DNA of 32,836 nucleotides from Candidatus Poseidoniaceae archaeon (GTDB taxonomy: Archaea; Thermoplasmatota; Poseidoniia; Poseidoniales; Poseidoniaceae): positions 1 through 32,836 of the forward strand of contig JAOMOG010000017.1 in assembly GCA_028353405.1 (NCBI GenBank), in the 5' to 3' direction. How positions within the stretch are numbered: the stretch's first letter is position 1; each line of letters starts with the position of its first letter. The translations under genes and the position numbers were made by a program. Positions 5,813 to 32,836 of the stretch are shown here, piece after piece. The notes beneath the pieces are model-generated. The model was not told the DNA's origin, did not search any database, and was given only the letters and a program-made list of their open reading frames with translations.

Positions 5813-6631
5813 ATGGCGCAAGACTTACTCAGTGGTGAGCGGGTTTTGGCATTTGATTTGGAGACCACTGGCATCTCAACTAATAATGATAGAATTGTTC
5901 AATTGGCATTGATAGGAGTTGATGTTGATGAGCTGCCAATTCATTTTGAAACCTTGGTCAATCCAAGAATACCAATTCCCTATGGCGCGACTAATGTTCA
6001 TGGCATTTATGATTCAGATGTTAAAGGAGAAGGGGACTTTTCAACTATAGCTGATAAAGCATTTGAATTGATAGAGGGTTCTGTTATCATTGGCCACAAT
6101 GCTAGAAATTTCGATATGAAATTAATTAATTCAGAATTTCTGCGCTTAGGAAAATTGCCCCCGAAGCCAAAGGTTGTTTTGGATACTCTTGAGGTTGTTA
6201 GGAGACTAAAACTTGCCCGGCCTCATAATTTAGGAGCACTCTGCAAACGTTATGGAATATCATTAGAAAACGCTCACACCGCCGCTGCTGATGCTGCTGC
6301 TGCAATGTTGTTATTTTGGCGACTTACCGTCGATCACCCCTCTTCGTTTAGAAGGAGTATTACCGAAGTTGAACGCTGGTTAGTCAATGGAGAAATAAAA
6401 TCTGATGCTTCTGTTATTGGACGGGGAATCGATGATTTAGGTTTAGTAGATCCACAAGGAAGAATAAGAAAAGATGGTGAACAATATGTCGTTGCTTTCG
6501 GAAGACATAAGGGTAAAGAAATCAGTCAAATCATCAGCGAAGACCCTGGTTATCTAAATTGGTTATTATCTCCAAAGGGAATCGAAGATGATGCCACGAG
6601 AGAATTGATTAGAAATCAATATTCTCTATGA
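5813..6631 (+). CDS. DEDDh 3'-5' exonuclease (DnaQ-like) with DUF3820-like C-terminal domain
   Basis: A 272-residue protein. Residues about 9-170 carry the full DEDDh exonuclease set: Asp15 and Glu17 in FDLETTG, Asp101 in HNARNFD, then His155 and Asp160 in HTAAADA. Two metal ions would be bound by these acids. This is the fold of DNA polymerase III epsilon, which removes 3'-terminal nucleotides. Residues about 225-255 (AFGRHKGKEI ... PGYLNWLL) match the pattern of the small DUF3820 domain often found behind DnaQ-like nucleases. A role in DNA repair or turnover is inferred. Its last 16 nt overlap the 3' end of the Fe-S nuclease gene on the other strand. A weak TTAAGAAG lies about 26 nt before the ATG. 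Confidence 0.9.
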   Translation: MAQDLLSGERVLAFDLETTGISTNNDRIVQLALIGVDVDELPIHFETLVNPRIPIPYGATNVHGIYDSDVKGEGDFSTIADKAFELIEGSVIIGHNARNFDMKLINSEFLRLGKLPPKPKVVLDTLEVVRRLKLARPHNLGALCKRYGISLENAHTAAADAAAAMLLFWRLTVDHPSSFRRSITEVERWLVNGEIKSDASVIGRGIDDLGLVDPQGRIRKDGEQYVVAFGRHKGKEISQIISEDPGYLNWLLSPKGIEDDATRELIRNQYSL

Positions 6632-7797
6632 TATTCTGTATCGTCTGGAATTGGATTCCATGGCAATACATCACACCAATGCCCAATTCTCCACGCTCTT
6701 CCTTGAGTCATTACAGAACCGACAAAGATGGGCCCTTGATGCCCTGTATCCAATAATTCCTTCAACGCTTCTAAGCCCCTTCCATCGAATTTTGCACTAG
6801 TACGAGCGCCGCTTGGCAATACGCGGCCGCTATCATCTAGTGGCTCGCATAGTTCAATTGCAGCCGCACCAGATTCCAAATCAATGTCATGTAACAAGAT
6901 TACTGCGTCGGCGAAATCCGCCTTGTGAAGTGTACCGTTATCGCTACGCCATTTCCACCAATGTGGGCACCAAGCTTTCCAGTCACAAAACCCACCACAG
7001 GATTCGTCACCAATTTGAGGTGCCATCGGTAAAGGAGTTGGTTGTGTTTTCTGCCATGCATCAAATGCCTGTTCCAATACATTCTCTCCTTTGGCTTCCC
7101 ATTTCGCTGAAGTCTTAGTGTACCAACCCTCTGCTACCACTGGTGGTGCATTTGGATTGTTTGATAATAATATGTCTCGGTACATCAGTAATTGGCGATT
7201 GACTTCACTCTTCAGTGTACCTTCAGGCGCCCTTCCTGTTTTGAAATCTGCAACTACCCACCCACTGAGTTTACCTTCATCATCAACATCGGCGAGTAGT
7301 AAATCCAATCTTCCCATCAAACGACCATCGCTTGTTTTCAATTCACCTTCAACTGCGATAACCAATGATTGTATTTTCCTCCACAGTGCAGCAGTAACTT
7401 TCTCATGAGGTAAACCGCGTACACCAATGTGATCTAATAACAAAATAATGCCACCTTTTTGTTGACGTAGGGCCTCGCTCCACTTGTCTTCCTTCCATTG
7501 AGGATGCCTTGGTGTAGCAAAGAATAATGCTTTTTCTTCTTCCCATCTTGCCCGAAGAAGAATCTCTCCCTCTTCCTTTAACCAACCTGCATCAATATCG
7601 TTTTTTGCAGATAGGTCCATGTTTAGAAGGTCTTCCAGAGATGCGTGAACTGCAGTTCCTATCGATGCTGCCATACCTGCTTTACGTGGTAATCCTTGAC
7701 GACTTAACCAATACATACGCGGGCAAGTTTCGTAACGATTCCATGCTGATGGAGAGAGTTGGTGCGGCCGTGCTGTCTTGTTTGCTTCGCCGCTCAT
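6616..7797 (-). CDS. PD-(D/E)XK nuclease with Fe-S cluster, Cas4/RecB/AddB-like
   Basis: A 393-residue protein. The nuclease motifs are His51 in GTAVHASLEDLL, Asp165 in GRLDLLL, Asp184 and Lys186 in VVADFKTG, and Gln202/Tyr206 in RQLLMYRD. This is the RecB/Cas4 order. Four Cys, Cys25 (YETCPRMYW) plus Cys267, Cys271 and Cys277 (ESCGGFCDWKAWCPHW), are spaced as in the 4Fe-4S nucleases Cas4 and AddB. The enzyme is expected to degrade DNA ends. The last 100 residues form an extra C-terminal domain with beta-like pattern (QGPIFVGSVM, AWRIGHW) that is not part of Cas4. No cas gene or CRISPR array is nearby, so a repair role is more likely than spacer acquisition. The gene is convergent with, and overlaps, the DEDDh exonuclease. 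Confidence 0.85.
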   Translation of the reverse strand: MSGEANKTARPHQLSPSAWNRYETCPRMYWLSRQGLPRKAGMAASIGTAVHASLEDLLNMDLSAKNDIDAGWLKEEGEILLRARWEEEKALFFATPRHPQWKEDKWSEALRQQKGGIILLLDHIGVRGLPHEKVTAALWRKIQSLVIAVEGELKTSDGRLMGRLDLLLADVDDEGKLSGWVVADFKTGRAPEGTLKSEVNRQLLMYRDILLSNNPNAPPVVAEGWYTKTSAKWEAKGENVLEQAFDAWQKTQPTPLPMAPQIGDESCGGFCDWKAWCPHWWKWRSDNGTLHKADFADAVILLHDIDLESGAAAIELCEPLDDSGRVLPSGARTSAKFDGRGLEALKELLDTGHQGPIFVGSVMTQGRAWRIGHWCDVLPWNPIPDDTEYHREY

Positions 7798-9147: not shown

Positions 9148-9663
9148 ATGCTGACAGAAGATGAACTATGGAGTGGAGTTGAAAATTTATTTTCCGAATC
9201 AACTGTGATAGAATCTCTAAAAAAGAAATCCAATCACACAATCATCGCAACAAATCCTGCGACCAGAGAATACACGATCAAATACGGGGAATCTGGAAAC
9301 CCCGTTGTCGTAAAGTTCTGGAAGGTCTGCAAGATGTATTCAATGCTCTGTGATGCTGGAAGGTTGTTTAATTCTGATATGGAGAATGGTGGGCACAACG
9401 AGGTTGACATGTCAACTTGGCACAAACCTGGTTCCGCTATGCTAGCAGTAATTCCACTTCTTGATTCTGAAGTTTCCATCAATGAAGATGGTCCCGAAGC
9501 AGGCCTATATCGTAATTTACCTAGCAATGCCGTCGATGATGATGATGATGATTACTATTATGATGACGATTACTATGACGACAGTGGTTCAGGGAGAACC
9601 CCAAATGACGACCGTTCTGATTCAATGAATCCGAACAGTCACCGATATAACCCTGGTCGCTAA
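9148..9663 (+). CDS. hypothetical protein with an Asp/Tyr-rich acidic tail
   Basis: A 171-residue protein not recognised as any family. Residues about 1-125 look like a small mixed alpha/beta domain (LWSGVENLF, HTIIATNPATREYTIKYG, VVVKFWKVCKMY). It is followed by a run of Asp and Tyr (about 129-144, DDDDDD-YYY-DDD-YY-DD) and a polar Ser/Asn/Arg tail. The tail would be disordered and could bind cations or basic proteins. No signal peptide is present, so it is probably cytosolic. It stands alone on the plus strand between two Cys-rich genes on the minus strand. Confidence 0.65.
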   Translation: MLTEDELWSGVENLFSESTVIESLKKKSNHTIIATNPATREYTIKYGESGNPVVVKFWKVCKMYSMLCDAGRLFNSDMENGGHNEVDMSTWHKPGSAMLAVIPLLDSEVSINEDGPEAGLYRNLPSNAVDDDDDDYYYDDDYYDDSGSGRTPNDDRSDSMNPNSHRYNPGR

Positions 9664-13123: not shown

Positions 13124-15304
13124 TTAGAATTCAAATAATGACTTCTGGCTATCACTTTTTTCTTCTATTTGAGGAGGTTTCGGTTGCTCTGTAGTCGATG
13201 AATCTATTTGCGAAAATAATTCTTCTTCGCTCCATATCAAGACTTGTAGAGATTCTGCTTTGGCTAATTTTGTGCCTGCCTTTTCCCCAGCCACCAAGAC
13301 ATCTAACTTGGCTGAAACACTGCCAACTACTTTTCCTCCAGCATTTTTTATTGATAATTGAACTTCTTTTCTCGGACGAGACAATGAACCTGTTAAGCAG
13401 AAAGTTTTGCCGGATAGGCTGCCACTGTCTATCGCTTTTGGCTGATCTTCCACATCTATCAAGGATGCTAAATCGAGTAACATTTCTCTTCTTGAAGCAA
13501 GGCCATCTCTTACTTGTCTAGCCACTATCATTCCTATTCCATCTATTTCAACAAGGTCGCTTAATGCCTCGTTTTCCTGCTCTTGTTGCTCCTCTGCATC
13601 AGCAACCCACTGCATTAAATTATCAAATGATGTTGCAAATTGGGCTACTAATATTGCTAATTCTGGGCCGATTTTTGCAATACCGAGAGCATGTAAAAAT
13701 TTTCCAAGAGGCATTTTCTTAGTTTTGGATAATTCACTGAGAACATTTACTGCTGATTTTTCCCCCATCCGTTCGAGATTTTCTATCTCGGTTTGTTTTA
13801 GGCGGTAGAGACCTGGGATATTTACAATCAACTTCTCTTCCAATAATTGCTCAACTAATTTCTCTCCGATTCCATCCATTTCCAATGCTCGGCACCAATA
13901 CAGAATTGAACGGCTTGTTCTTTCTGTACACATCATATCTTCACAGCGCAACAAAGCCCCATCAACGACCAATATTGCTTGACAAGCCGGACATAAAGTT
14001 GGTATTTCAATCTCCATTGGCTTTGGCAATTCTAACTCAAAGGCACTCCCATCAGCATGGAATCGATCTTTCATATCATTAATTGAGGCTGGCCCCAATC
14101 CATTCTCGATTTTAGGAATAACATCACCACGGCGAACGATTAAAACTCTATCCCCAATTTTGACGCCTAATCTTTGCACTTCTCCAACATTGTGCAGTGT
14201 TGTATTTTCAACTGTTACACCGCCAACCATTTGTGGTGCAATTTTGGCAACCGGGGTGACTGCTCCTGTTCTGCCAGTTTGCCATGTAACTCCGAGTAAT
14301 ACTGAAACTGCTTCTTCGGGTGGAAATTTCCAGGCTAATGCCCAGCGTGGGTGATGGGCGGTTTTACCGAGTAATTGTCTTCTTTCCAAAGTATCAACTT
14401 TGAAGACAAGTCCATCGATTTCAAATTGATAATCATCACGTTGTTGTGCCCATTTGCTAGTCTCTGCACACATTGACTGAATCGCTTTAGCAGAAGCATC
14501 AAAATCATGGACATGCCATGGTGCAGGTTCAATGCCGGCTGTTTCCCTTAACCAAAGCAGAACTTCGGAATCCTGCTTGAAATCTTGAGGAGTAATACTT
14601 TCAGGGTGGCGGTTATTGGCATCTGGAAATTTAGCATCATATGCTTGGAACACCAAATCCTCTGCCTTTGCTTTACCCTCTGCTCTCTTTTGGCGCAATG
14701 CTCCAGCAGCTAAGTTGCGAGGATTAGGAGAAATATCACGATATTTTGCCTCGAACATAATTTTTCGCATTACAACTTCACCGCGAACATGGACATCAAT
14801 CTCCACTCCCAGTGATTCAGGGACATTTTCTATTCTGCGAGCATTGCGAGTGACATCTTCTCCCCGTGCGCCGCTACCGCGTGTTGCAGCCCTAACCAAG
14901 CGTCCTTTACGATATTCTAGGGAAAGGGCAGAGCCATCCAATTTAGGCTGAGAAATGAATCTACTAGCACCTAATGCGGTTTCGTTAACGAAATGATTGA
15001 TTTCTTCATCGCTAGTAGCCTTATCAAGACTGCTCATGGGAAACATATGGTCTACTTTTACAGTGCCTGGATCTACATCTGAACCTACAATGTTGAGTTG
15101 CACGTTATTTGGGTCAAGCGCTTTCAGTTCGTCCCATAATCTATCAAACTCTACATCTGTAATCTGTGTCTGTGCTTGATTGTAATAGAGATCTGAATGG
15201 AAGGCTATCCGTTGCGATAGCCAAGCGATTCGCTCCGCTTCATCCTGTGGATTTGGACCGACCTCCGCCATAATACGAACAGGATGGCGAGCCTTCTTGA
15301 ACAC
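13124..15304 (-). CDS. ligA: NAD+-dependent DNA ligase LigA with C-terminal PIP-box-like tail
   Basis: A 726-residue protein that seals DNA nicks using NAD+. It shows the Ia domain (YYNQAQTQITDVEFDRL), the adenylated lysine Lys121 in KLDGSAL, EIDGLVFKVD (295-304) and AWKFPPE. It also has the OB fold, a four-Cys zinc finger (Cys438, Cys441, Cys454, Cys459), helix-hairpin-helix repeats and a C-terminal BRCT domain (about 635-705). Bacterial LigA is about 670 residues. The excess includes a polar linker after BRCT and the terminal heptapeptide QKSLFEF, which matches PCNA-interacting peptides of archaeal replication proteins. A GTG start at 15304 is preferred because a TATA box (15327-15334) is centred 26.5 nt upstream; an ATG at 15271 is an alternative. 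Most archaea use an ATP-dependent ligase, so lateral origin is likely. Confidence 0.95.
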   Translation of the reverse strand: MFKKARHPVRIMAEVGPNPQDEAERIAWLSQRIAFHSDLYYNQAQTQITDVEFDRLWDELKALDPNNVQLNIVGSDVDPGTVKVDHMFPMSSLDKATSDEEINHFVNETALGASRFISQPKLDGSALSLEYRKGRLVRAATRGSGARGEDVTRNARRIENVPESLGVEIDVHVRGEVVMRKIMFEAKYRDISPNPRNLAAGALRQKRAEGKAKAEDLVFQAYDAKFPDANNRHPESITPQDFKQDSEVLLWLRETAGIEPAPWHVHDFDASAKAIQSMCAETSKWAQQRDDYQFEIDGLVFKVDTLERRQLLGKTAHHPRWALAWKFPPEEAVSVLLGVTWQTGRTGAVTPVAKIAPQMVGGVTVENTTLHNVGEVQRLGVKIGDRVLIVRRGDVIPKIENGLGPASINDMKDRFHADGSAFELELPKPMEIEIPTLCPACQAILVVDGALLRCEDMMCTERTSRSILYWCRALEMDGIGEKLVEQLLEEKLIVNIPGLYRLKQTEIENLERMGEKSAVNVLSELSKTKKMPLGKFLHALGIAKIGPELAILVAQFATSFDNLMQWVADAEEQQEQENEALSDLVEIDGIGMIVARQVRDGLASRREMLLDLASLIDVEDQPKAIDSGSLSGKTFCLTGSLSRPRKEVQLSIKNAGGKVVGSVSAKLDVLVAGEKAGTKLAKAESLQVLIWSEEELFSQIDSSTTEQPKPPQIEEKSDSQKSLFEF

Positions 15305-23892: not shown

Positions 23893-26800
23893 TTAGAATC
23901 CTGAATCTTCGTCACCATCATCAAGTCCTGCTTGACGTAGTGAACCATCAGCTGCTACGAATTCACCGGCTTTGGTTTGGACATCGTAAAGATTAACCAA
24001 ATCCTTTCTTCCAATCATTCCGTCCTCACCTAATGCAAGGGTTAGAGAACTAGAGATTGCATTTAGTGTCATCAATGCCTTATCGCGGTGTTCAACGCCG
24101 ATATTGTGATCGGAGTATCTTGCTTCTTCAAAGATTGTTAAGAATCCATCAAGTTGCTCGCTTGGCACCATGCTGAAGGCAGCACGAACTGCTGTTTCAA
24201 ATTCACGAGTTGTTTCGTAAACCTTCTTCATAAATCCATGCTTTCTGAAGTGCTTAACCAAATTCTTGTAGCAATCGAAAATTACAGCAATATACTCGTT
24301 ACTTGCTTCCAGTTGCATCATTGTATCAGTCAATATACCCTTTAGAGCATGTACCTGGCGACGCTCTTGTACGCGTTGCCAATACATGAAGCCTGCAATG
24401 ATTGCAGCCATCAAAACGATTGCAAATGCCATCATAGATTCAGGAGTGAACAATGATGATTGAGCATTGACATCGCTTAGTTCAGCCCATACAACTTCGT
24501 GGGTAATGTTATCCTGGGATTCTGAGAAGTAAGTAGAACCTGGGTAATATGCAATAATACGCCATCTTCCTTCACAATCAACACCATTACAAGTCCTACC
24601 ATCGAAAGCCCACTCGAAGCTTGCGTGTCCTTGTTCATTGGTCTTGGTCTTGTTGACTCCTTCCTTGACCCACTCATTATCTTCAGAGTAGAATTGGCGT
24701 ACGAACCATACTTCTTCGTTTTCAACCGCCAAGTCAAGGCGGTCGCGCAATAGTGCTATTTCACCTATAATCGCAGTTCCTTCTGGAACTCCGTTACTAC
24801 CTGAATGACTCCATGTTTGCTTAACTTGAAGGTCAACGCGGGAACGAACTAAGAGTTCTATATCCATGCTCGAACCATTCAATACATTGGATGAATCCTT
24901 ATCACAACCTCCAGCAACACGTAAATCTGGTTCAAATGCAACTCTTAGTGTTCTGAATCCTTCCAACTTGCCACCGGTTGTTTCAACACCCTTTAGCGAC
25001 GGATTCTGCAGTTGATCTCCACTGAACCATTCCACCGTACCATCTAATTCGTTAGTACGAATTGTTGCGATTGGGCGAACATTTTGCTCAGGGTCAAGAT
25101 AGATGTTCAAACACTTTCCACCAACGTATTGGCCATTGGATTGCGTTAGTTTAGCATCTATGTGGAACGACTCCTTCAGGTAAAGTACAGGATATGTACT
25201 TCCATTAGGCGCCATCCATGATTCAACACTGGACTTGAAAGGTCCAACTTCCATTATTGAAAGTGTAGAGTTAGAGAATACGTCAAACTCAGTTTGTACT
25301 GTTTTGTTTTCATAGCGGTATGCATCGTTGTTATCATATGATGAATAGATAACAGATACCTTGGCCTTTCCAGCCATTACGTCGCTAAGAGGACAAGTAA
25401 TAGCGTAGAAACCATCAGAATCAGTTGTCGATGTAGGACAAGCAATAGGGCCGGATTGGCCGTTAACCATCTCGTAATTAACACGAATAATTCTGTTCGT
25501 TAAGTTAGTTCCGAGTTCATCTGACAACTGTCCTGTAACAACCATTGGTTTAGGAACGATTTCACCGGTCATAGGGTCAACTTCGCTTGTGTAAACAATT
25601 TGATCATCAACGTCTAAATTAGTACGGCCGATTAAACTGAATCCATTTGCATTGTGAGTCATTATCACACGATAGTGATCGTTACCAGGCGTACTTACAC
25701 ATGGATCCCATGCACCTTGTATTCCTAGGTAAGAAGCTTCTAATGGAGCACATCCTTCATTTGGAAGTGTTTCTTCGAAGCGAACAATTACATTGACTGG
25801 TCCGAATCCATCTGGTAAGAAAGACTCAGGGTCTTCGCGTAATAGTTGCGGATTCAAAGGACTGATATTAGATTTCAAACATCCAATTGTCTCATTTCGA
25901 TCTAAGTCACCGTCTTGGTTGGCATCTCTGTCTGCGAAACCATCACCATTACCATCATAGAAACATAGATGAGAACCATCAGGTTGTGGCTCTGGCAAAG
26001 AAATCAATCCAGCTTGTGGTGCAACTGTTGCAACGACTTGTCGGTGGCTGATTCCGTCAAAGGCCTTACCTTCAAAGATAATATCAACCAATCCACCATC
26101 AGGTGCTTCAGGACCATCAAGAGCTGCTCCACCGGAGTCGCGCTCTAGGGTCTTATTGTCATCAACAAGTTGTGCTGTGAAATCCCAACGGTCTCCATTT
26201 TGGCGTAAATTAGGATCTGCTGTTGTAACTGATAAGTAAGACCTTGAAACAACCCACACTTCTTGTGTTGCTGTATTACCCTTCATTAATGGAGTTCCTG
26301 CGTATTCAAATTGCAAGGTGAAGTCACCTAGTTCATCTTGTGCTGAAACATTGAAAGGAATCTCAAAGAATCCGTTGTCATCTGTGTAATTAACACCCGT
26401 TCTTCCATCGAATGACCAAGTGTAATTGACTGGGGCATTGCGCACTGGTTGTAGAGAATTGTCAACTAATTTCGCTTGAATTGTAGTGTTAGTATTACGA
26501 TAAAGGCGAGGCAGGGAGGTCGTTTGGAAATCCGTAGTACCTACAACTGTTACATTGATGTATGCACCAGTGTGTGAAAGTGTTGTCGAGTTTCCTGTGA
26601 AATAGTATGCTGAGTTAGTGAAATCAACTCTTACACCATATGTTCCTGCACTGTATTGACTGTACCAAGACCAGTTGTAATCGTATGCTGCATCTCCGTC
26701 CTTCATTATTGGGCGCTGAGCATATGCTGTCTCTTGTGCCCCCATAAATTGTCCATTCTTGTCAACGTCAATTTGCAAAGCGACCGGGTCTGCATCCCAT

Positions 26801-29800
26801 GCATCATTGGTCCTATTTGTGACAGTACCAATGATTTGGAAACCTTCTCCAGTATTCATTTCTGGAACAATTTCACAACGTACTGGACTTTGTGGGTCTG
26901 TTGGATCAACAGCACCACAAGGCGGTAAGTTAGAATCTCCTCCATTGACTAAATTGATGTACCAATGTGTTGTATTAACAGATATGAAATTGCGTAGTCT
27001 TGCTGATTCACCCAAGAGTGTTGCAGGGTTTCCATCCCAATTTGTAGCGTATGGTTTGTAGTTTGCAACATCATTGAAGTTAATTCCTGCTGCAGTCAAA
27101 GCCTGTGCATGGAATAGAGTTGCCCAGTCACCAAAGGTACCATCACCGTTGTTGATAGTCGCATCAAAGTAGTAAACCGGATTTACTCCGTTTGCAATCA
27201 TTTGTCCTTCAATATTCATGCGATGCATAATACGAACTTGGAATGGGAGCGATTCATCGCCATGTAGCCAAGGGAATGGCCATTCACTTGCTAATTCTGG
27301 TGAGACTCTTGCAATAATTTCAATATCTCCAGAAGGTAAACTTGTATTAGAATAATCATATCTTACTGGCACACCGAGGCTGTCTAGAACTACGTTGTGG
27401 TTTAAAGTCAATGAATCCCAAACAATTTCTTCATATCCACCTGGAATCTGGCCAATGCCATTATCCATGGTTGAGTTCCAACGAACTTGTTTCCAAGTTC
27501 CTGAAATACCCAAATCTTGGATGAAGGTCAAAGAAGCCCAACCCGAAGAATCTGTTCGGTATCCCTCTCCACCAAATCCAGTGAAGTTCGTTGGGTGGGT
27601 CGTGTTACCGAAAATTCCACCAAAGATAGAGAATGTAATAGGTGCGTTCTTAACACGGTTATCGAAGAGTCCTCTCTCCCAATCAGCTGCGTAGTGTGCC
27701 TTGAAATCAAGCCAGAACGGTTGTTCATCACTGCGGAAATATTCCCATGCCGAATAATCAACTGTTAGGTTTGCTTCTACACCAACATTGTAAGATTGTG
27801 AAGTGTTTCCATTGAATGCGAACATTTCTGTTACTTCTGCATACACGATATATGTTGAACTATCACCTACTGATATGTCTTCAGGGTATAGGAATTGTCC
27901 GACACTGAAGTTTCCACCAGCATTTGTCAAAACATCAGTTGTTTCAACTGCTTTGGTTCCGTTTGCAGTCCACTCAATGGTAACTTGAACAGGTAATCCA
28001 ACCGCGTTCTCCATCTGGCCAGAAATTGGATTCACCCAATCTACATGCCCACTGAAAATCGATGGTGAACGTGCATCGATCCAAAGATTATTTGGAACGT
28101 TCATAGTGATGAAAGTTGGAGCTTTATCATCCTCGTCGAGAACACAATCATTGTCATGATCCCAGTCACTTGATTCAGCACCCGCATAGCATGCATCGCT
28201 GGTGAAGGAGTTTTCCAAATGGTCGAAATCAGGATCTTCACGTGTGTCATTGTCATCATCCATGTCTACTGCGTCCGGACCTGTTCCATTATCAAGAGGA
28301 TTAGCGATACCTTCGCCATCTCCAAAGTCATCGTGATCCCAAGGGTTGGTTGAGTTTCGGTCAAAACGGGTAGGCCAAAGTAGAACTTCGTCCACATCTT
28401 GCATTCCATCTTGGTCATCATCCAAATCAAGGTCATCGCGTGTACCATCGTTGTCGTGATCGAAGGCTTGAGTTAGACTGATTGCAAGTTCTAAGGTATT
28501 AGAAATTCCATCTGCGTCCCAATCATCATCCATCCAGTCAACAATTCCATCATTGTCATTGTCAAATGGCATTTGTTCTTCTCCCCAGAAACAATTTGGC
28601 ATTTGTTCTTGGAGAATATCGCTGATTCCATTATTGTCATCATCGAAATCCTCTGCATCAGGAACACCGTCATTATCATTGTCAACGTCGTAATACTTTG
28701 GTGCGCGTAGGCCTTGCGACATGACACCTTGATCCCAAACTGCTTGGAACCAACCATCTTCGTCAACGTCGGCATCATTACCATCGTCATCATTGTCTTC
28801 ACAATTAGTTCCGGTGAAGAATGCGCCATCGTATATTTGGCCTGCATCGTCATCTAAATCATCATTTGAATCAACTTCAAAGTAATCCCATATTCCATCG
28901 TTATCATCATCGACATCATACCAATCATAAACCGAGTCATAATCATCATCTAAATCGACTGTATCATTTGTGAAATCGCCATCCAGGTCGCCATCAACAT
29001 CGTTCTTCATCAAGTCTGCACCGAGTTCATCAGGGAACTCATCCAGGTGCTTTGGACCCATTCCGTCAACGTTCCACTGCCATAGCCCAGTAAATAGACC
29101 GAACCAAGCGATGAATGAATCTCTGTTATCTGTCATGTCAACATTGGAAAGTGCAGCGCTCTTTTGTCCATTGAACTCGTAATGGTAACAGCCACCTGCT
29201 GCTCCAGGGGTGCAGCTCCAATTTCCAGTGCTAGGACCGCCGGCGAAAGCGCCTTCGTTCCAGTTTTCATCAGGGCGAACAGAATAAGGTGAGCCCATTT
29301 GAGCATTTACTCCGTTCAGTGGCATATGGAACGCGAGAGCATAAGCATAACCACACACGAAACCTTGACCCAGATTTCCAACTGTCCAACCACACGTAGT
29401 TAGGTCGTACGAACCACCCATGCGGATATCATTGACATCGAGTACACCATCATTAGCTTCGTCTTGATCCCACCAATCTGGCAGACCGTCCGCGTCTTGA
29501 TCCATGTCCAGACCGTTGATTAGAGAATCTCCATCACTGTCAATATCCCAATCGTTTCCACCATTATATGGAGACCAGCGAGCGAATAAGAACCAATAAA
29601 ATTCTGGAACTGTACCTGGAGTAACTGGATTTGTAGTTGTATCATATCCATTGTAGTTTAGAACTACATCTTGGAAAGGATTGTGCAAGTAAACCATGTT
29701 CCAGTGGTCAGAGGTGTTATCTGAGTATGTTTGAGAATCTCCACTCCCATCCAAAGCACCACCGTCATCTACAGGGTAAAATGGTCTAGCAAATGAATCG

Positions 29801-31770
29801 CCTAGATCAAAATCAAGAACACCGCAGTTTCCGTCATCTGGATCGTATAAGTCTGAAATACCGTCGTTATCATCATCCCAATCGATGTCGTTTTCAAGTC
29901 CATCACCATCAATATCAGAATCAACTGAGTTTGGCCCGTCGTCGCGATAAAGTGCACCGTTGATAGTATGTAAATCTGCATCATTATCCAAATCACAATC
30001 CCAATCAATATCCAATGCATCCATTATGCCGTCGTTATCGTCATCTACATCTTCCCAGTTGTTGATTCCGTCGCCATCCCAATCGTTGAATTGTGAATGA
30101 GAAGCACGTTGTGATACACAGCGAGAATCTGGATTTGTAGGATTCGGATTAGCAATTGTAGGACAATTCCATGTTGCTACATCTGAAGACTTGTCCAATG
30201 GGAACGAATCGTTCTCATTTTGTATTTGGTCATCATCAAGGTCGTATTCGAAATTTAGCGCATCTCCGCTAACTAGGATGTTGTCAAGATTATCTGGTGA
30301 AGTGGTACCACCCATATCTGCATCCAACCAATCTGGGATTGCGTTATAGTTTTGATCAATGAATCTAAGGCGGTCGTCATCTTGGTCGTAGTCATAATCA
30401 AGTTCACAATCGATTCCAGGAATTGAGTCTGTATCTCCACCAGGAGTTTGGAATGGCGCTGTTAGATTGCTTCTTGTATAATCATTCAATCCGTCTCCGT
30501 TGGTGTCAATGTTGATACAGACATCGAGGATTCCGTCATTGTCATCATCTGGATCGGACATATCGAGTATTCCATCATTATCGTCATCATTATCTGCACT
30601 ATCTGGTGTTCCATCATTGTCGTTATCAGGATCGAGGAAGTTAGGTACTCCATCTAAATCTAAATCTCCATCAACAATTGCTGAAAATGAAGGAGTTCCT
30701 TCTGCGCCCATTGCACCGTGACCGGAGGTTGTGCTGTGAGTTCCTGCTGCTGCAACGCGTGCTGCCTCGTATGCAACATAGTCAACACCACCAGAGAAGG
30801 TTCTGTATTCGTTGAAAGTCCATGTACGATATGCTTCAAACATATTCCCAGCTTGTGTGTGAGATGTCGTTATTGAAGCATCGTAAGGATGTGAATCATC
30901 AACATCAGAAACGCCATCATCGTCGTCATCATCATCGAAATAATCTTGGACACCGTCGCTGTCTAAATCGCAAGGCCACTTAAATTGGTCAATTCGTGCA
31001 TCGTTATCATCGTCTTCATCATAACGCCCTGCGCCTGAACCATCACTATCCTCATCAGGAACGCCATCGTTATCGTGGTCAAATGGATTTTGGTCTGCAA
31101 GGTAGAATGCTCCGACTGGTAGATTTGTCCAAGGATGAATAATCGTGCTGTCTAGGTAACGGTCTGTTGTTACATTAATCGGGTCAAGTCCTAATCCTTT
31201 AAGAGCCTCATAATCAAGTGGGCCTTCGATAATACCATCATTATCATCATCCCAATCTAGGTGGTCGAGAATTCCGTCATTGTCATGATCGTATGGATCT
31301 GTTCCATAACATCCGTCAAAACGTTCTAACAAATCATAAATTCCGTCATTATCATCATCTAAATCATCGAGGTCGTTTATTCCATCGTTGTCGTGGTCCT
31401 CTTTGCTAGATTCTTCCAAGAAAGTAGAATAAGATGGAATTACTGATTCCAAAGCAGCAAGGTCTAGTATGACTCCAGATGATATCCCAGCATCACTCCA
31501 CATAAGATTGGTTAGAGCAGGGTGCCCATTTGGACCGATGTATTCCTGGTGACCAACCCAGCCGCCTTGGCCGCCTTGGTCAGTAGACTGTGCAGGTGAT
31601 TGTCCAATCGGCTGTCCTTTGACAAGCGCTGTTTCGGACGTTCCTTGTTCACCATCATCTGGTTGTACCAAAGCTAGTAATGGACTTGATATCATCAAAA
31701 AGACGATTGTCAAAGACATTGACAAAATTTGGCGTCGGCGTATTGTTTCATTTTTTGTGTTTGAGAGCAT
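23893..31770 (-). CDS. giant calcium-binding-repeat surface protein, 2625 residues
   Basis: A single-pass surface protein. The N-terminus has basic residues (RRRQ) and a hydrophobic signal segment (about 16-36). Residues about 125-1220 hold many DxDxDG repeats (TSP3-type, alternating DHDNDG and DDDNDG units) that should bind calcium in a stiff rod. They are interrupted by unrelated islands of about 50-140 residues (near 320, 700 and 790-910). Residues about 1220-2440 are beta-sandwich Ig-like domains with many N-X-S/T sequons and a DGNGDG-type site near 1950. A membrane helix lies near 2443-2464. The cytosolic tail of about 160 residues contains TREFETAVR ... FEEARYSDH, resembling the DUF4129 domain. 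A Shine-Dalgarno (GAGGTGG) precedes the ATG. Adhesion or S-layer function is inferred. Confidence 0.85.
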   Translation of the reverse strand: MLSNTKNETIRRRQILSMSLTIVFLMISSPLLALVQPDDGEQGTSETALVKGQPIGQSPAQSTDQGGQGGWVGHQEYIGPNGHPALTNLMWSDAGISSGVILDLAALESVIPSYSTFLEESSKEDHDNDGINDLDDLDDDNDGIYDLLERFDGCYGTDPYDHDNDGILDHLDWDDDNDGIIEGPLDYEALKGLGLDPINVTTDRYLDSTIIHPWTNLPVGAFYLADQNPFDHDNDGVPDEDSDGSGAGRYDEDDDNDARIDQFKWPCDLDSDGVQDYFDDDDDDDGVSDVDDSHPYDASITTSHTQAGNMFEAYRTWTFNEYRTFSGGVDYVAYEAARVAAAGTHSTTSGHGAMGAEGTPSFSAIVDGDLDLDGVPNFLDPDNDNDGTPDSADNDDDNDGILDMSDPDDDNDGILDVCINIDTNGDGLNDYTRSNLTAPFQTPGGDTDSIPGIDCELDYDYDQDDDRLRFIDQNYNAIPDWLDADMGGTTSPDNLDNILVSGDALNFEYDLDDDQIQNENDSFPLDKSSDVATWNCPTIANPNPTNPDSRCVSQRASHSQFNDWDGDGINNWEDVDDDNDGIMDALDIDWDCDLDNDADLHTINGALYRDDGPNSVDSDIDGDGLENDIDWDDDNDGISDLYDPDDGNCGVLDFDLGDSFARPFYPVDDGGALDGSGDSQTYSDNTSDHWNMVYLHNPFQDVVLNYNGYDTTTNPVTPGTVPEFYWFLFARWSPYNGGNDWDIDSDGDSLINGLDMDQDADGLPDWWDQDEANDGVLDVNDIRMGGSYDLTTCGWTVGNLGQGFVCGYAYALAFHMPLNGVNAQMGSPYSVRPDENWNEGAFAGGPSTGNWSCTPGAAGGCYHYEFNGQKSAALSNVDMTDNRDSFIAWFGLFTGLWQWNVDGMGPKHLDEFPDELGADLMKNDVDGDLDGDFTNDTVDLDDDYDSVYDWYDVDDDNDGIWDYFEVDSNDDLDDDAGQIYDGAFFTGTNCEDNDDDGNDADVDEDGWFQAVWDQGVMSQGLRAPKYYDVDNDNDGVPDAEDFDDDNNGISDILQEQMPNCFWGEEQMPFDNDNDGIVDWMDDDWDADGISNTLELAISLTQAFDHDNDGTRDDLDLDDDQDGMQDVDEVLLWPTRFDRNSTNPWDHDDFGDGEGIANPLDNGTGPDAVDMDDDNDTREDPDFDHLENSFTSDACYAGAESSDWDHDNDCVLDEDDKAPTFITMNVPNNLWIDARSPSIFSGHVDWVNPISGQMENAVGLPVQVTIEWTANGTKAVETTDVLTNAGGNFSVGQFLYPEDISVGDSSTYIVYAEVTEMFAFNGNTSQSYNVGVEANLTVDYSAWEYFRSDEQPFWLDFKAHYAADWERGLFDNRVKNAPITFSIFGGIFGNTTHPTNFTGFGGEGYRTDSSGWASLTFIQDLGISGTWKQVRWNSTMDNGIGQIPGGYEEIVWDSLTLNHNVVLDSLGVPVRYDYSNTSLPSGDIEIIARVSPELASEWPFPWLHGDESLPFQVRIMHRMNIEGQMIANGVNPVYYFDATINNGDGTFGDWATLFHAQALTAAGINFNDVANYKPYATNWDGNPATLLGESARLRNFISVNTTHWYINLVNGGDSNLPPCGAVDPTDPQSPVRCEIVPEMNTGEGFQIIGTVTNRTNDAWDADPVALQIDVDKNGQFMGAQETAYAQRPIMKDGDAAYDYNWSWYSQYSAGTYGVRVDFTNSAYYFTGNSTTLSHTGAYINVTVVGTTDFQTTSLPRLYRNTNTTIQAKLVDNSLQPVRNAPVNYTWSFDGRTGVNYTDDNGFFEIPFNVSAQDELGDFTLQFEYAGTPLMKGNTATQEVWVVSRSYLSVTTADPNLRQNGDRWDFTAQLVDDNKTLERDSGGAALDGPEAPDGGLVDIIFEGKAFDGISHRQVVATVAPQAGLISLPEPQPDGSHLCFYDGNGDGFADRDANQDGDLDRNETIGCLKSNISPLNPQLLREDPESFLPDGFGPVNVIVRFEETLPNEGCAPLEASYLGIQGAWDPCVSTPGNDHYRVIMTHNANGFSLIGRTNLDVDDQIVYTSEVDPMTGEIVPKPMVVTGQLSDELGTNLTNRIIRVNYEMVNGQSGPIACPTSTTDSDGFYAITCPLSDVMAGKAKVSVIYSSYDNNDAYRYENKTVQTEFDVFSNSTLSIMEVGPFKSSVESWMAPNGSTYPVLYLKESFHIDAKLTQSNGQYVGGKCLNIYLDPEQNVRPIATIRTNELDGTVEWFSGDQLQNPSLKGVETTGGKLEGFRTLRVAFEPDLRVAGGCDKDSSNVLNGSSMDIELLVRSRVDLQVKQTWSHSGSNGVPEGTAIIGEIALLRDRLDLAVENEEVWFVRQFYSEDNEWVKEGVNKTKTNEQGHASFEWAFDGRTCNGVDCEGRWRIIAYYPGSTYFSESQDNITHEVVWAELSDVNAQSSLFTPESMMAFAIVLMAAIIAGFMYWQRVQERRQVHALKGILTDTMMQLEASNEYIAVIFDCYKNLVKHFRKHGFMKKVYETTREFETAVRAAFSMVPSEQLDGFLTIFEEARYSDHNIGVEHRDKALMTLNAISSSLTLALGEDGMIGRKDLVNLYDVQTKAGEFVAADGSLRQAGLDDGDEDSGF
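28121..31398 (-). repeat. DxDxDG (TSP3-type) repeat array inside the giant gene
   Basis: Dozens of short units encoding D-x-D-N-D-G-hydrophobic-x-D. At the DNA level this appears on the plus strand as recurrent 'cc(a/g)tc(a/g)tt(a/g)tc(a/g)tc' blocks. The repeats are at the protein level; codons vary between units, so they are not an identical-copy satellite. The last unit (DHDNDCVLDEDDK) replaces the Gly by Cys. Confidence 0.8.
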
Positions 31771-32022: not shown

Positions 32023-32836
32023 TCAAGCTTCCAAGATATCTTCGATGCCGTCGTTATCGTCGTCGTCATCTTCGTTGTCTTGCAAGCCGTCGTTATCATG
32101 ATCAAATTGACCTGTTAGGGAGTTTCCGTCATTGACTTCGAACCAGTCGGATAATCCGTCATTGTCGTCATCGTTGTCTGAAAGGTCCCAAATGCCGTCG
32201 TTGTCATGGTCGTAGCGGTATGTACCGGTAGCGCCATCAGCTTCGTCAACGTCGAGAATATCGTCGTTGTCGTCATCGTCGTCAACACCATCATCCATGC
32301 CATCATTATCATGGTCACGGGATAGGTCTTCGCCAGATGTGCCTACGTCATTGTAGTTGTCTATTCCATCATTGTCGCGATCTAAGTCAACAGCGTCGGA
32401 GATTCCGTCGTTGTCGTGGTCGTAGATGTTGGTATTCGGGTCACCGTCTTCAACTTCTTCGCGGTCGTCGATTCCATCACCGTCATCATCGTCATCTTCA
32501 GCATCAGTGATGCCGTCGTTGTCGTGATCCATTGGGAATTCATCAACTGAGTCCGGAATACCGTCATTGTCATCGTCGTTGTCTACATCGTTAGGGATGC
32601 CGTCACCGTCGTTGTCATTTTCGCCATTCTGTTCCTGGTTGTCGAGCTGCTGACCTTGTTGTTGGTCGGTCTGTTGACCCTGTTGGCCTTGTTGACCGTT
32701 TTGGGTTTGACCTTGTTGCTGCTCGTTCTGTCCATTCTGGTTCTCACCGTTTTGGTCTTGACTGGTTTGTTCGCCTTGCTGGCCGCCTTGTTCGCCGCCT
32801 TGCTGTTGTTGACCTTGTCCATTGTCTTGTTGTTGA
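32023..32836 (-). CDS. Gln/Gly/Asn-rich protein with TSP3 calcium-binding repeats (5' end off-window)
   Basis: A partial gene: the frame is open from 32835 to a TGA at 32023 (about 270 residues) with no plausible start inside, so the N-terminus lies to the right. The visible N-terminal 80 residues are a Gln/Gly/Asn-rich, likely disordered linker (QQGQ, GQNG, GEQG motifs). They are followed by about 12 calcium-binding units that alternate DHDNDG and DDDDNDG with the linkers shown by NDVD, DAED, DAVD, DLSD and DNED. The protein ends in GIEDILEA right after the last repeat. No membrane helix or sorting signal follows, unlike the giant neighbour. A start at the internal ATG near 32532 would cut the repeat array and is rejected. 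Confidence 0.85.
   Translation of the reverse strand, partial: QQQDNGQGQQQQGGEQGGQQGEQTSQDQNGENQNGQNEQQQGQTQNGQQGQQGQQTDQQQGQQLDNQEQNGENDNDGDGIPNDVDNDDDNDGIPDSVDEFPMDHDNDGITDAEDDDDDGDGIDDREEVEDGDPNTNIYDHDNDGISDAVDLDRDNDGIDNYNDVGTSGEDLSRDHDNDGMDDGVDDDDDNDDILDVDEADGATGTYRYDHDNDGIWDLSDNDDDNDGLSDWFEVNDGNSLTGQFDHDNDGLQDNEDDDDDNDGIEDILEA

Follow-up and report, generated by a model that had tools for sequence, protein, structure and literature searches.

The window, meaning the whole stretch of 32,836 nucleotides analysed here, comes from a genome (1.38 Mb, 66% complete) of Marine Group II (MGII, Ca. Poseidoniales) and encodes a complete NAD+-type DNA ligase, LigA, the features of which are collected in Table 1. 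The adenylation (PF01653), OB-fold (PF03120) and BRCT (PF00533) domains are matched with 182, 82.3 and 41.3 bits, all above the cut-offs, the Pfam match of the HhH domain lies barely above its cut-off, and the N-terminal NAD+-binding domain Ia (PF22745) reaches 25.5 bits at a cut-off of 27. The catalytic KxDG motif, here K110-L-D-G, and the zinc-finger cysteines C427, C430, C443 and C448 are invariant in an alignment of 26 LigA sequences. The list of open reading frames also offers a GTG start at 15304, but the ATG at 15271 is the likelier one, since relatives begin with MAEVGP or MAQTGP. Genes for the ribosomal proteins S9, L13 and L18e stand on the same contig (21864-23141), which places ligA in archaeal DNA.

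Table 1. Features of the ligase gene and its product, in positions of the window.
Feature	Position	Strand	Basis
ligA, NAD+-dependent DNA ligase, 715 aa (ATG start)	13124..15271	minus	ORF, Pfam, start from relatives
Adenylation domain PF01653	14315..15058	minus	Pfam
KxDG lysine, K110	14942-14944	minus	K110-L-D-G invariant in alignment
OB-fold domain PF03120	14102..14302	minus	Pfam
Four-cysteine zinc-finger region (C427, C430, C443, C448)	13928..13993	minus	Invariant cysteines
BRCT domain PF00533	13214..13417	minus	Pfam
Polar linker, 22 residues, rich in E/S/Q/K/P/T	13148..13213	minus	Sequence and length vary among relatives
Predicted C-terminal PIP box QKSLFEF	13127..13147	minus	Motif, conservation, FEN1-profile score
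Stop codon	13124-13126	minus	Directly after QKSLFEF

According to the first-pass annotation, the last seven residues of the protein are QKSLFEF, match the PCNA-binding (PIP) pattern and follow a polar linker behind the BRCT domain. The codons indeed read so, the linker is as described, and in an AlphaFold2 model built from 26 sequences (mean pLDDT 86.5, pTM 0.59) the end of the chain is predicted to be disordered from residue 693, with pLDDT under 50 for residues 693-715 (13127-13195). The arrangement Q-x-x-hydrophobic-x-x-aromatic is therefore found within a part that the model renders as flexible. The second aromatic residue of the canonical form, at position 8, is absent, as the chain stops at position 7; this residue is not treated as defining in archaea, because it is also missing from 16 of the 17 FEN1 tails examined within the order, and an archaeal PCNA client without it is on record (PMC3504372).

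The ending is kept across Marine Group II, in the alignment of LigA tails that the first pass had proposed as a check. The 150 MGII LigA C-termini read were reduced to 128 distinct ones by dropping rows identical over the last 300 residues; two loci at contig ends (L011, L068) and three from outside MGII (L163, L187, L220) are left out of the counts. An [LMI]xx[FYW] pattern followed by at most two residues closes 116 of these 128 sequences, [ST]Lxx[FYW] closes 113, and the strict Qxx[LMI]xx[FYW] closes 92. When each tail is shuffled 1000 times, the corresponding means are 4.3, 0.5 and 0.3 per 128, and the strict motif never exceeds 3 of 128. The other open frames of the same loci (mechanically called on both strands, at least 150 codons long and not all of them genes) carry the three endings in 14, 1 and 1 of 606 cases. 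The motif is only seven residues long, and a chance ending, or an assembly artefact in one genome, might be suspected; the 128 distinct sequences, the shuffles and a background of 621 C-termini rule this out, and its probability is practically negligible.

Aligned on the motif, the 117 tails with at most four residues after it have L at position 4 without exception (117/117), S or T at position 3 and D or E at position 6 in 114 each, and Q at position 1 in 92. The twelve columns that precede the motif have an entropy of 3.1-3.7 bits in the same tails, that is, the linkers are variable. Two relatives (L002, L004) retain QKSLFEF behind a linker unlike that of the window, and a third (L003) ends in QKSLLEY. 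Since the seven QKSLFEF codons of L001, L002 and L004, which are the closest relatives, are identical even at third positions, these three sequences provide no test of selection.

Judged by its letters, the tail belongs to the order's own type of PIP box. All 17 FEN1 proteins found among 23 genomes of the order end in [QK]x[ST]L[FS][DSE][FY], 15 of them with Q and two with K. The large subunit of RFC, read in 20 of the 23 genomes (in G016, G066 and G069 the best locus is not a large subunit), has a PIP-like extreme C-terminus in all 20, of the form QxxLF in 11 and QxxLxxF in nine, some with one residue beyond the motif; that of the window's own genome ends in GQTKLF. Among other Thermoplasmatota, QxxLxx[FY] stands at the end of 12 of the 14 FEN1 tails read, and the FEN1 of a sister lineage (G393) ends in GQKSLFEF, and so has the seven letters of the window's LigA. 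PCNA binding by archaeal FEN1 tails is well established (PMC3504372), and these tails share with LigA the QxxLxxF at the extreme C-terminus; the protein that carries them, however, is an archaeal-type nuclease, and LigA is of bacterial type.

A profile trained on 29 of 31 FEN1 tails, one of which has the window's own seven letters, gives the tail of the window's LigA 24.1 bits, and at 4 bits or more it recognises 109 of the 128 MGII LigA ends versus 0 of the 621 background C-termini. Of the 19 that score under 4 bits, nine end in TLDDW or TLDRW, which are PIP variants in our judgement, and the remainder are tail-less or frameshifted. Short hydrophobic C-terminal peptides can also bind other proteins or mark a protein for degradation, in which case the likeness to a PIP box would be convergent. 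That another partner of this kind accounts for the tail is very improbable, given that the same seven letters end the FEN1 of G393 and that the LigA tail is recognised by a profile of FEN1 tails, whose ligand is PCNA.

The clamp for which such a tail would be suited was found in 23 of 26 MGII genomes, in 22 of them by PF00705 and in G002 in two pieces; G030, G069 and the genome of the window, which is 66% complete, gave no PCNA. In G002, a nearly complete genome on a single contig, PCNA is split into adjacent matches (L348 and L350), perhaps by a frameshift, and is missed by PF00705 alone. The bacterial beta clamp (PF00712) was found in none of the 26 genomes.

The first-pass statement that LigA of bacteria normally terminates with the BRCT domain or close to it holds for a small sample. 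No clamp-like end is seen in 15 of the 16 bacterial LigA read, a sample biased by the 14 that come from a plasmid collection. The best match in the PDB, 2owo, which we take to be the LigA of E. coli, aligns up to query residue 687 of 715 with chain residue 667 of 671. It shares with the window's LigA the order of adenylation, OB, zinc-finger, HhH and BRCT domains, the KxDG motif and the four cysteines, but is without the linker and the PIP box. The LigA of the Azospira plasmid pAZI09 (L273, annotated end 2364) has a long linker that ends in QPSLF, likely a beta-clamp site, and groups with other bacteria in the tree.

Named relatives of LigA, of which 80 were kept from 532 candidates, stand in 77 cases under the names Poseidoniales, Poseidonia, Poseidoniaceae, Thalassarchaeum, Thalassarchaeaceae, Marine Group II, Euryarchaeota archaeon or uncultured euryarchaeote, the exceptions being ETNP2_MAG_1, Allochromatium and a bacterial MAG. 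ETNP2_MAG_1 (G329; L147/L163), a Thermoplasmatota MAG that is alone in its order among the sampled genomes, has the nearest LigA outside the Poseidoniales, which shares the BRCT signature FCITGSLSxPRK but lacks the tail, and may preserve the state of the enzyme from which the tailed form arose. In a tree of 73 LigA rows obtained by a quick search, the MGII sequences form one set with support of 100, and together with ETNP2_MAG_1 and a very long viral row (L300) a set with support of 96; apart from that of ETNP2_MAG_1, the NAD ligases examined from other Thermoplasmatota group with bacteria. The tree singles out no bacterial donor of MGII LigA; its sample contains no spirochaetes, the group to which the tree in PMC1684257 points. 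A viral source finds no support, since the LigA of 31 viral contigs match at 28-35% and have no PIP end (29 ends are visible, L294 and L304 running off their contigs). An aoguangvirid magrovirus is described as having a PCNA of its own along with a ligase of the ATP-dependent kind (PMC10768690). Three viral rows (L300, L301 and L310) have a BRCT signature, FCITGTL[ST]KDR, that resembles that of MGII, L300 being a very long branch. Outside the order, the tail is absent from 15 of 16 bacterial LigA, from 29 viral ends and from ETNP2_MAG_1, and within it the tail is present in 116 of 128 MGII sequences. This is the opposite of the refuting outcomes that the first pass had listed for these comparisons and supports its proposal that a laterally acquired NAD+ ligase probably gained a clamp-binding tail.

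The tail could instead be a beta-clamp motif of the QLxLF type that came with the enzyme from its donor and is now without a partner. QKSLF fits the loose beta-clamp pattern too, the Azospira plasmid provides a bacterial LigA with a comparable end, and the donor enzyme may have had such a tail. In Helicobacter pylori, a short peptide of LigA likewise binds the sliding clamp, but the clamp is the bacterial one and the peptide (QEFIRSLF, residues 554-561) lies near the BRCT domain (PMC4976356). However, the MGII genomes searched hold no beta clamp, the conserved residues run on to an acidic and aromatic end as in the FEN1 of the order, the nearest relative and nearly all bacterial LigA read are without the tail, and a motif without a partner would hardly have retained its leucine in every aligned tail. 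A relic of this kind is highly improbable, by a shade even more so than a tail for some other partner.

An MGII-type LigA is present in 270 of the 292 genomes of the order and in all 35 of the most complete ones, one of which (G008) has it as a fragment only. None of 89 genomes in the order, namely 88 at least 85% complete and the window's own, has a match to the ATP-dependent ligase family (PF01068). In the phylum sample, PF01068 is matched in 186 of 389 genomes, six of which belong to family f3 of the same class and 180 to others; four of the six f3 matches are weak (E about 1e-12), and one further genome of f3 (G359) is without a match. The NAD+ ligase is hence the only DNA ligase found in the order, and of the two possibilities left by the first pass, that LigA replaces or that it supplements the ATP-dependent ligase, the former fits.

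On a tree of the 128 MGII LigA built without the tail, the presence of the tail changes four times, two of the changes being marginal: in L038 the frame is lost before QKSLMDF, which stands in the +1 frame, and L043 ends in QTSLYDH. The tail is lost in L052 (G019) and in one MGIIb clade of eight rows (L048, L049, L162, L206, L210, L216, L231 and L232), where LigA stops directly after the BRCT domain with ...EWEAMLQP or alike. No remnant was found past the stop codon in two members of the clade, and no internal Qxx[LIM]xx[FWY] site in five tail-less LigA that were scanned. Since the tail is found on all deep branches, it was probably present in the common ancestor of the MGII LigA family. Two nearly full-length ligA copies occur within one MAG (L170 and L171, PAUH01; G160 contigs C63 and C122), owing to a mixed bin or a duplication.

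The tail appears dispensable in these tail-less lineages, because no ATP-dependent ligase was found in four genomes there, three of the MGIIb clade's genus (G007, G015 and G038) and G019; the tail-less ends themselves were read from G108, G131, G065 and G019. Of the 23 LigA read in family f16, all but one have no PIP-like end and the other ends in KQSTLL, and G433 is the only f16 genome among the ATP-ligase matches. ETNP2_MAG_1, too, combines a tail-less NAD ligase with no ATP-ligase match. The tail is therefore not a strict condition for the replacement or for living on an NAD+ ligase, and we read it as an improvement in coordination and not as an absolute need. These tail-less enzymes, apparently sole ligases in one MGIIb clade, in ETNP2_MAG_1 and in f16, would also suit a history in which an enzyme without a tail had already taken over replication and the PIP box was gained for, and mainly serves, repair. 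Such a course is unlikely, as the only ligase found should do both and a FEN1-type tail favours Okazaki-fragment maturation, but the present data do not separate a role of the tail in replication from one in repair.

With high confidence, we hold that an ancestor of MGII acquired a bacterial-type LigA that replaced the ATP-dependent ligase, gained a PIP-box tail early and is predicted to dock on PCNA. In the course of events that we infer from the sequences, the incoming NAD+ ligase would have supplanted the archaeal enzyme, and early in the MGII lineage a disordered linker with a PIP box at its end would have been added to it. Like the tails of archaeal FEN1, the peptide would fit into the hydrophobic pocket of PCNA, and the clamp-held ligase could then take over nicks from FEN1, both when Okazaki fragments mature and in repair. 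LigA of MGII would be a concrete example of an essential machine that has taken in a component from a different domain of life, the body remaining bacterial and a seven-residue address tag of host type being added. It also makes testable whether tethering to the clamp helps a foreign ligase to displace the native one, for which natural controls exist within the order (the clade that lost the tail and the lineages with an exchanged body and a host tail, described below) and beside it (the tail-less NAD ligases).

Parts of this picture are known. HF70, an NAD+ ligase encoded by a fosmid from an uncultured marine euryarchaeon, has been attributed to a lateral transfer apart from that of haloarchaeal LigN (Poidevin and MacNeill 2006; PMC1684257); likened by its description, it is probably a member of the MGII LigA family, and the words PCNA and PIP do not occur in the text of that paper. 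For MG-II, Table 3 of PMC4153887 lists the ATP ligase as absent or unavailable and gives bacteria as the source from which the NAD ligase was transferred, if the fourth column of the flattened table is taken as MG-II. The LigN of Haloferax volcanii is comparable as a laterally acquired NAD+ ligase with a share in the essential function of ligation (PMC7776575), but it stands beside an ATP ligase and stems from a separate transfer according to PMC1684257. The acquisition of LigA and the absence of the ATP ligase in MG-II are therefore known, published for less material. In the accessible portions of the open-licence literature on NAD+ ligases, PIP and PCNA, and Marine Group II, no description of the MGII LigA tail was found, and the PIP tail on MGII LigA appears to be new, as a combination of known parts.

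Ligase bodies have also been exchanged within the order. Five LigA from MGIIb genomes group inside the MGIIa LigA, one from genus g13 (L045), two of the g19 type (L059 and L234) and two named Thalassarchaeaceae (L199 and L211); L045/L182 and L059/L213 are paired locus rows. For the most part they are closer to MGIIa, for example with 74-86% in columns 61-240 versus 49-72% for MGIIb, and their BRCT part shows no preference. The tail of L045, QQMSLSDY, corresponds to QQMSLGDY of g13, the last columns agreeing to 72% with the MGIIb lineage versus 29% with MGIIa, and the other four end in GTLDDWI or GTLDDWL, as g19 does (54-65% versus 28-29% for MGIIa). The flanks of the exchanged genes are on the whole of MGIIb. 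Around L045 (locus L182), every matched flank frame is best in MGIIb loci, and flank genes found in both groups reach 64-83% with MGIIb versus 39-45% with MGIIa; in L234 and L199, a few frames are best in MGIIa loci and overlap ligA itself. A binning error is rejected, as the flanking genes are MGIIb.

With bodies of MGIIa type, flanks of MGIIb and tails of the host lineage, it follows that the bodies were exchanged in place and that the type of tail is the host's. The host tail on an exchanged body may reflect selection for it, or a crossover that by chance fell before it. Because the exchanged bodies carry QMSLxDY in one lineage and GTLDDW in another, each as its host, the clamp tail could be regarded as a module of the host and not of the enzyme, regained or kept after the exchange of the body; this is a tentative reading, to which we assign somewhat less than an even chance. 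On that reading, MGII grafted a FEN1-type PIP box on a bacterial LigA, and other Thermoplasmatota with a LigA of separate origin gained ends of their own, described below. If true, selection would time and again have favoured docking to the clamp, whichever ligase an archaeon came to use. The FEN1 and RFC tails of these genomes differ in subtype from that of LigA, as in G030, where they end in KPTLFDF and QFSLNDF, respectively, so that the data do not demonstrate a simple match of the tail to the clamp.

Possible parallel tails occur in other Thermoplasmatota. The NAD ligase of family f5 belongs to a clade other than the MGII LigA, and 10 of its 16 ends (L124-L127 and L328-L333) consist of a charged linker and [TP]LD[EK]F[IFVM], one is RLSEFI, and five have none; the LigA of G393 ends in QKTLF. 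The [TP]LD[EK]F end of f5 is, by its sequence, a possible candidate for a second clamp-binding tail. The FEN1-tail profile gives at most 2.3 bits to four f5 LigA, 6.4 to L129 and -0.9 to G393, and the FEN1 of f5 ends in KQ[KR][SN]LFD[FY]; because of these low scores and the different FEN1 ends, the f5 and G393 tails are the weaker PIP candidates. Should they be real, clamp docking would have been gained more than once.

Elsewhere in the window, an exonuclease gene (RNase_T, with an ExoX-like C-terminus) overlaps tail to tail with a PD-(D/E)XK nuclease gene at 5813-7797, both products possibly having a role in DNA repair. A small protein encoded at 9148-9663 has an Asp/Tyr run near its C-terminus (DDDDDDYYYDDDYYDD). 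The first half of a very long predicted protein of 2625 aa (23893-31770) contains many D-x-D-x-D-G repeats rich in Asp, and another Asp-rich frame (32023-32532) is similar to it.
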